Assembly: GCA_015058205.1 (NCBI GenBank)
Contig: SVCS01000005.1
Coordinates: 1 to 35,239, forward strand
Source of the DNA: Clostridiales bacterium
GTDB taxonomy: Bacteria; Bacillota; Clostridia; Peptostreptococcales; Anaerovoracaceae
Direction of reading: 5' to 3'
Length of the DNA: 35,239 nt
Shown here: in pieces, positions 3,560-4,905 of the stretch
Numbering within the stretch: the first letter of the stretch is position 1
Layout of the letters: each line of letters opens with the position of its first letter
Made by a program: the position numbers and the translations under genes
Notes under the pieces: generated by a model
What the model was told of the DNA's origin: nothing
What the model saw: only the letters and a program-made list of their open reading frames with translations
The model's database searches: none

Positions 3560-3577
3560 TGTTATGACCCATACGCG

Positions 3578-4462
3578 TTATGATCCATACGCGGGCTGTT
3601 CAATCTGACAGCCCGCTTTTCTTGCGACGCTAACCAATGTTTTGTTCCACTGCGGGCTGGCGGTAAGCACCTGAAACAATACTTCTTTCACTCTGGCCTC
3701 CTCCCGGATATCGTGATGAAAGGTCATGAAGACATTTCTTCCAATCATCAAGCCTATGCTGTCATAAGCCTGAAGTCGTATAATGAGGTCTTCATCATAT
3801 TCTCTCAAATCCATCCTTCCCACGTGTTCCAGAATCACTAGTCTCCCATCAGGCAACATAATAATGAAATCCGGATGGTATGCCCGGTTGCTGATCGTTA
3901 CACGAGTTTCATATCGGTACGGAATATGCAGCCTCTCAAGAAGGTCCCCGATAAACCTCTCTGACTGCGTACGCATATATACCCCTCCCCTCGTCGGATA
4001 GATCAGTTCCTCCCTCCGGTTCTCCTTCTGGCTGTGCCGGTCCGAATTCCATATTCTCTGGTTCGGTGTCATCGTGATCCGTTCAATGTCCAATCCCGCA
4101 TCCTCATATTTCTTCAGAAGCGTTTCGATTTGAGGGTAGAGTCTTAAAATGATACGTACCGTTTCGCTCGTCCATCCTTCCTCAAGAATCTGTTCCAACA
4201 AAATCGCGCGAAGTTCTAAATACTGCTTACTTGCTAGTTGATACACCGTTTCAGGAAAACTCGTGATTCCTTTCACCGTTCCATCCAATCTATGATTGAA
4301 CTGGACGTGTCCATTTCTGACCCTGATACTCAGTTTTCCCTTCGGCAACGAACTCAGCTCTTTTTTCATTTCGCTGAGTTCACCGTATAGATTTGCGTTT
4401 ATTCTGTCGATTTTGGTTTTAGCGAGGACCGGAGTCAACAGCACTTTTGATTTTTCTCCCAT
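3578..4462 (-). CDS. Orphan gut-Clostridia protein family with PD-(D/E)XK nuclease-like C-terminus
   Basis: The ORF track gives 3578..4576, but MGEKSKVLLTPVLAKTKIDRINANLYGEL is a more likely start (about 4462). RTQSERFIGDLLERLHIPYRYETRV...YHPDFIIMLPDGRLVILEHVGRMD matches the YPDF...EHxGxMD pattern recalled from an abundant uncharacterised Firmicutes family. Confidence 0.7.
   Translation of the reverse strand: MGEKSKVLLTPVLAKTKIDRINANLYGELSEMKKELSSLPKGKLSIRVRNGHVQFNHRLDGTVKGITSFPETVYQLASKQYLELRAILLEQILEEGWTSETVRIILRLYPQIETLLKKYEDAGLDIERITMTPNQRIWNSDRHSQKENRREELIYPTRGGVYMRTQSERFIGDLLERLHIPYRYETRVTISNRAYHPDFIIMLPDGRLVILEHVGRMDLREYDEDLIIRLQAYDSIGLMIGRNVFMTFHHDIREEARVKEVLFQVLTASPQWNKTLVSVARKAGCQIEQPAYGS
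3591..3622 (+). terminator. Rho-independent terminator of the EamA-hslO transcript
   Basis: GCGGGCTGTtcaatctgACAGCCCGCTTTTCTT; lies inside the 3' end of the convergent gene. Confidence 0.8.
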
Positions 4463-4564: not shown

Positions 4565-4860
4565 AACCACATACAAAACGAAAGATCAAGGGTTCTGCAT
4601 AACTGAAAGTGGTTATTGCCCTTCCCAAGTTCGCTCTCAACCACTCGCAATACGAAGTTTCAAGGACTTCAGGTGCTTGCTTGTGGTCATTCCCTTGTTG
4701 AAAGTTGTTTTCAACCACGCAAGATGTGTAATATCAAGGGTTTCACGCACCGCTGTGTGGTTGTGTTCCTTCTAAACCCCTGCTTCAACCACTCACGATA
4801 CGTAATATCAAGGGTTTCACGCACCGCTGTGTGGTTGTGTTTCTCTCTCACCCCTTCCTA
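4565..4860. repeat. Four-unit degenerate tandem array, 74-bp period
   Basis: AACCAC at 4565, 4639, 4713 and 4787 (exactly 74 bp apart). Each unit has TCAAGG at unit positions 22-27 and GTGGTT (GTGGTC in unit 2) at 45-50, then a divergent 24-nt pyrimidine-rich segment. Units 3 and 4 are nearly identical over about 50 nt. Confidence 0.9.
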
Positions 4861-4871
4861 ACCCCACAACA

Positions 4872-4905
4872 AAACCCCGGTCCGCACATTTGTGGATCGG
4901 GGTTT
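4872..4905 (-). terminator. Terminator of groESL
   Basis: AAACCCCGGTCC gCACatttGTG GATCGGGGTTT hairpin just downstream of groEL. Confidence 0.75.

Follow-up and report, generated by a model that had tools for sequence, protein, structure and literature searches.

In REP/REPIN-RAYT systems, or REPtrons, the RAYT is an HUH enzyme that acts on single-stranded hairpins (PMC3116915, PMC8266576). Here we describe a family of nuclease-like genes of Clostridia that shares much with these systems: inverted palindromic repeats, a repeat family of its own beside each paralogue, tandem clusters, dispersed copies in some genomes, and co-evolution of protein and repeat. The arrangement by which REPtrons are recognised, a gene's own palindromes clustered beside it and co-evolving with it, is also found in the nuclease family. 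In contrast to REP/RAYT, the protein is of the PD-(D/E)XK type, the repeats are private words of 7–12 bp with a spacing phased to the DNA helix, and copies beyond the cis array are mostly few. Because no HUH enzyme is present and the sites look double-stranded, the nuclease module is not a member of the REP/RAYT family.

Homing endonucleases of the AP2-HNH and PD-(D/E)XK types likewise combine a small DNA-binding domain with a nuclease, and they too are intergenic, patchily distributed and often decayed; a homing gene accompanied by an array of sites for its own product is not known to us. Multiple sites for the cooperative assembly of one protein occur at the TnsB-binding ends of Tn7 and in plasmid iterons. 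Unlike these, the nuclease module has neither a transposase nor a replication protein, usually has one array per gene, and carries a different word at every paralogue. The large proteins of the PADLOC candidate PDC-S68 and AAA/helicase proteins of plasmids have a related nuclease domain, whereas the present family has no helicase part, and only in this family did we see arrays together with an N-terminal domain that would read their sites. We could not find such nuclease-linked arrays described in the open-access literature. The module ties a large unannotated gene family of gut Clostridia to intergenic repeats that would otherwise pass as meaningless hairpins or candidate RNAs.

The array and its gene at the hslO-groEL locus

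The window, by which we mean the whole 35,239-nucleotide stretch of Clostridiales DNA that was analysed, contains the following features.

3561 to 3593, no strand: 16-bp direct repeat, two copies of GTTATGACCCATACGC, in the interval from the hslO stop to the nuclease stop, close to the insert's left-hand border
3578 to 4462, minus strand: putative cognate nuclease gene, 294 aa, ATG at 4462
4178 to 4342, minus strand: part of that gene coding for residues 41–95, the predicted site-reading domain
4565 to 4614, no strand: array unit 1, inverted pair AACCAC...GTGGTT
4639 to 4688, no strand: array unit 2, inverted pair AACCAC...GTGGTC
4713 to 4762, no strand: array unit 3, inverted pair (C)AACCAC...GTGGTT(G)
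4787 to 4836, no strand: array unit 4, inverted pair (C)AACCAC...GTGGTT(G)
4871 to 4905, minus strand: hairpin of the groEL terminator, marking the insert's right-hand border, common to empty-site relatives

Four 50-bp inverted repeats (AACCAC...GTGGTY) recur with a period of exactly 74 bp within positions 4565–4860. AACCAC starts at 4565, 4639, 4713 and 4787, and GTGGTY follows 44 bp later in each unit, as GTGGTT at 4609, 4757 and 4831 and as GTGGTC at 4683; an earlier note on this DNA had described the same four-unit layout, which is confirmed. Identity at a lag of 74 bp was 0.64 over 4565–4860, with far lower values for the best lag of 60–89 in 5000 shuffles (mean 0.31, maximum 0.39). Units 3 and 4, which had been called nearly identical, do agree at 46 of 50 positions, and all other unit pairs agree at 29–34 of 50. 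Tandem Repeats Finder overlooked the array because the interiors of the units have diverged. The note had further suggested that a 24-nt segment pairs with the next unit; this is clear for unit 1 only and is not a feature of arrays elsewhere, and we rejected cross-unit pairing as a property of the array. We also rejected an interspersed element spread across the window's genome, since a search of that genome for exact AACCAC-N34-42-GTGGTT returned only units 1, 3 and 4.

The array is bounded by the groEL terminator on one side and the start of the 294-aa gene on the other. The gene is transcribed away from it, and the array ends about 100 bp before the ATG, as had been noted for this PD-(D/E)XK-like gene. 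AlphaFold2 modelled the protein (pLDDT 93.9) as a long N-terminal helix, a beta-beta-beta-alpha domain (residues 43–95) and, after a helical linker, a C-terminal domain that resembles PD-(D/E)XK (residues ∼150–262, with E168, D198, E212 and H213). Support for PD-(D/E)XK is at the profile level: E168, D198 and E212 are conserved, and the lysine of the ExK motif is replaced (E212-H213-x-G215). Because this classical lysine is not conserved, catalysis by the predicted nuclease is uncertain. A Pfam search of the 294-aa gene gave no match, and a Y1 transposase, also sought with Pfam, was not found, model and profiles indicating PD-(D/E)XK. PADLOC and PHROGs searches did match the nuclease domain, which is homologous to the PADLOC candidate PDC-S68 (E = 7e-19). 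Foldseek against the PDB found no significant match for the whole model or for the N-terminal domain alone. The topology of the N-terminal domain fits AP2, but neither Pfam nor Foldseek supports that identity, which we rejected; in this the protein differs from the AP2-HNH homing endonucleases.

Gene and array together fill the hslO-groEL gap in four genomes (G000, G047, G008 and G035). In two others (G014 and G020) both are absent; the gap there contains only some 80 bp plus the common groEL terminator, so that empty sites exist. The gene has the opposite orientation in G019 and G007 with the array still on the groEL side; the G019 array is degenerate, and the G007 gene is truncated yet its array is kept. 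Similar modules elsewhere adjoin recN and rpsA (annotations by eye). These comparisons of loci show that gene and array form a removable module within which the gene can be inverted. No target-site duplications were found at the locus, where the relatives are too diverged for exact insertion ends or target-site duplications to be defined.

Arrays beside other members of the gene family

The earlier note had taken the gene for an orphan; it belongs instead to a large paralogous family with eight members in the window's own genome (1.85 Mb, 123 contigs, about 94% complete). Family matches occur in 45 of the 49 genomes of the genus and in several families of Clostridia, single genomes of Clostridia having as many as 16 matches, and nearly all matches outside Clostridia are to the nuclease domain alone, within other, often larger, proteins. 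The named close relatives are uncultured Clostridiales MAGs, including ones from goat-gut and horse-faeces samples. An origin in known phages or plasmids was rejected: scans of viral contigs for a phage origin found no relative, and plasmid matches were mainly to the nuclease domain of AAA/helicase-like proteins. Three unannotated human-gut phage records showed weak matches to the family. Many family genes (G038, G021, G370, G410 and others) contain in-frame stops and are probably decaying.

We called an array where a 7-mer occurred at least four times, in both orientations, in the 530-bp flanks of a gene, and we used as control windows real sequence more than 900 bp away. Word clusters flanked 41 of 86 members in a first set (6 of 166 control windows) and 25 of 41 members in a held-out set from other families of Clostridia (4 of 112 control windows); shuffled sequence yielded clusters in 2 of 543 windows. 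With both sets joined, 66 of 127 members had an array compared with 10 of 278 distant windows, in a sample made up mostly of MAGs, where contig ends may lead to undercounting or miscounting of arrays and where related arrays are partly non-independent. Homologues are thus not consistently without arrays, and the link between array and gene, offered earlier as an inference, is supported by the arrays of other family members. In about half of the members the 7-mer method detected no array.

The arrays consist of 4–13 copies of a private 7–12-bp word, arranged in inverted pairs immediately 5′ or 3′ of the gene. Where a word could be defined, 34 of 61 arrays were 5′ and 27 of 61 were 3′; in 3′ arrays the first copy often falls less than 60 bp past the stop codon. 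The words are gene-specific, and include CAACCAC, AAAGTACAAAA, CTCATRAAAG, TTGCCACAAG, ATTCTATAA, AAAGTCTCC, TTGTACACC, TGACCCGTAA and GGGATGA, among others. At one locus (L161 in G370), the gene is flanked on both sides by its own word, with one copy in a TTGACA...TATAAT promoter-like sequence.

Spacing of the sites and the domain that may read them

Distances between same-orientation copies cluster at 40–43, 51–53, 61–64, 72–75, 82–85, 91–95 and 101–106 bp, placing these copies whole helical turns apart with a period of about 10.45 bp (peaks at 10.4–10.5 in both sets). In the 41 arrays of the first set the mean cosine was 0.75 at about 10.4 bp, and 0 of 2000 jittered controls were as high; in the held-out set it was 0.68 at 10.5 bp. 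Drawing a single random distance from each array (n = 55) gave R = 0.69 (Rayleigh p about 5e-12). Within single arrays the spacer shifts by one turn while the length of the pair stays fixed (72, 61, 72; 73, 84, 74; 75, 64, 64). Stem mismatches, counted in the sense of the gene, comprised 11 G-U and 15 A-C; on these small numbers, neither strand shows RNA selection. Whole-turn phasing and the absence of a G-U bias therefore indicate that the sites work as double-stranded DNA.

The identity of the word was compared with that of each protein domain. At the groEL locus, the orthologues of G047 and G008 have nuclease domains that are 99% identical and N-terminal domain halves that are 48 and 37% identical (about 45%), and despite the near-identical nucleases their words differ (CAACCAC in G047, AAAGTACAAAA in G008). 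Between G047 and G035, the halves are 62 and 78% identical and the word core is the same. Identity in the N-terminal domain predicted word similarity (standardised betas 0.14 and 0.11), which nuclease identity did not (−0.03); the correlation of N-terminal domain and word is weak across all pairs (r = 0.18), and the strong cases are close pairs. Every pair with an identity of at least 0.62 over residues 40–68 has a word similarity of 6–8, against a mean of 3.1. By these sequence comparisons, the word tracks the N-terminal beta-beta-beta-alpha domain and not the nuclease domain, and we infer that the N-terminal domain reads the word.

These data suggest that the protein encoded next to the array binds it as a set of clustered double-stranded DNA sites, and that gene and array form a cognate nuclease/site-array module at the DNA level, a reading to which we assign a probability of roughly 0.75. 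It agrees with the suggestion in the earlier note of a protein-binding array, which gains support from the B-DNA phasing and from the apparent match between motif and N-terminal domain. The safest statement is that gene and array would constitute a cognate protein/DNA-site pair, with the sites phased for cooperative assembly. In the mechanism we propose, the N-terminal domain would recognise the private word, and at least eight protomers would align along one face of the DNA (four pairs in the window's array). Assembly on the array would control or deliver the C-terminal PD-(D/E)XK nuclease, and breaks or nicks at arrays may promote the duplication and relocation of arrays and gene via recombination.

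Dispersal of the arrays and competing explanations

Arrays also occur away from family genes. In G431, a single contig of 1.67 Mb, CCCGTAA inverted pairs are found only in three arrays; one adjoins its own nuclease, and annotation by eye places the other two at asnA/clpB and at an ABC transporter. G446 holds 37 TCATCCC/GGGATGA pairs in about 13 arrays (reversed control pattern, 0); only one of these arrays adjoins a family gene, and the satellites are often at contig ends. Some are fused to ATGCATCCC blocks or a GTTATCCC unit in exact 53-bp register. Blocks with different words are joined through hybrid units, also in exact 53-bp register, at L237, L238 and L239 of this genome. A solo mosaic array in G004 (L037/L192, G004:C7 at about 86.5 kb) is composed of AAAGTACAAA, CAACCAC and CAACCAACGG units on a contig without a family gene. 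As judged from these arrangements, which show each case, single-word arrays can stand alone, scatter, and join in register to arrays of other words. Dispersal ranges from the 37 pairs of G446 and the three arrays of G431 to the cis array alone in the window's genome.

If breaks or nicks at arrays drive recombinational relocation, the gene-array pair would be selfish and REP/RAYT-like, albeit with unrelated chemistry. We are less sure of this recombination-driven spread of arrays and gene than of the module itself, and put it at slightly under even odds. In our judgement the most likely biology is a selfish element analogous to REP/RAYT, with its own palindromes, co-evolving specificities and occasional dispersal. 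Tentatively, and with not quite half of our belief, we propose a class of selfish element in which a PD-(D/E)XK protein occupies a helically phased private array, specificity, array and satellites diversify together, and many insulated pairs share a genome. If true, a REP/RAYT-like system would have arisen from an unrelated nuclease, dozens of natural protein/site pairs would allow the code by which a small beta-beta-beta-alpha domain recognises DNA to be read, and one could ask directly what makes a nuclease retain phased sites for itself.

The array might instead be a sink that holds a toxic nuclease inactive, such that loss of the array would free the nuclease and the array would play an antitoxin-like role. 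The tight linkage of gene and array and the 4–13 sites per gene are consistent with such sequestration or addiction, and private words would prevent cross-buffering; however, G004, G446 and G431 contain solo arrays that have survived with no cognate gene close by, no array could be detected for about half of the members, and the truncated G007 gene retains its array. We consider sequestration unlikely.

It is also quite improbable that the protein, bound to the array, regulates its own gene, whether by repression or by activation. An autoregulatory operator would suit the 34 of 61 arrays that are 5′ of their gene and the L161 5′ array, with its additional site in promoter-like sequence, but not the 27 that are 3′. 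Because the genes with 3′ arrays lack their own word upstream beyond chance (2 of 26, against 1.5 expected), simple promoter control is unlikely, and we rejected a simple operator. Such an operator would also hardly explain why the phasing extends across hundreds of bp or why satellites lie at unrelated genes.

Another doubtful explanation is a host function, in which the arrays would be anchoring or silencing sites for nucleoid structure or defence and the protein would be domesticated, perhaps as a catalytically dead nuclease. The missing ExK lysine, the dispersal of arrays in some genomes and the nuclease domain common to PDC-S68 are compatible with this, but patchy presence, frequent in-frame stops and very fast word change more closely resemble a selfish or conflict gene.

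A structured RNA array working with the nuclease, as in type III toxin-antitoxin systems or as CRISPR/TIGR-like guides, is very improbable: the hairpins can be folded on paper and the interval between a terminator and a nuclease gene would be a suitable location, but this reading, which the earlier note had offered alongside protein binding, is opposed by the whole-turn spacers, the absent G-U bias, arrays on either side of the gene, the lack of any Rfam match in the window, and a constant part that is a palindromic word while the remainder drifts. A ToxIN-like type III system would be expected to have its array upstream of the toxin and transcribed into an antitoxin RNA, in contrast to the 3′ position of 27 of 61 arrays, their helical phasing and their lack of G-U bias. 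CRISPR and TIGR-Tas systems have conserved RNA repeats with variable guide spacers, whereas in the nuclease arrays a palindromic DNA word is constant and there is no RNA signal; a scan of neighbouring proteins found no Cas or Tas match.

Many family genes (for example L077, L049, L025 and L093) share an A/T-rich, partly palindromic element (TGTAAAATATT / TTGGTAAATATTTACCAA) in a promoter-proximal upstream position, and this element does not depend on the array word. TGTAAAATA occurs in 11 of 84 family upstream regions (shuffle maximum, 6), and the element may act as an operator that all family genes have in common. Elsewhere in the window, positions 1722–1752 contain a short tandem repeat of ACGACATCATAAGGA in 2.1 copies.
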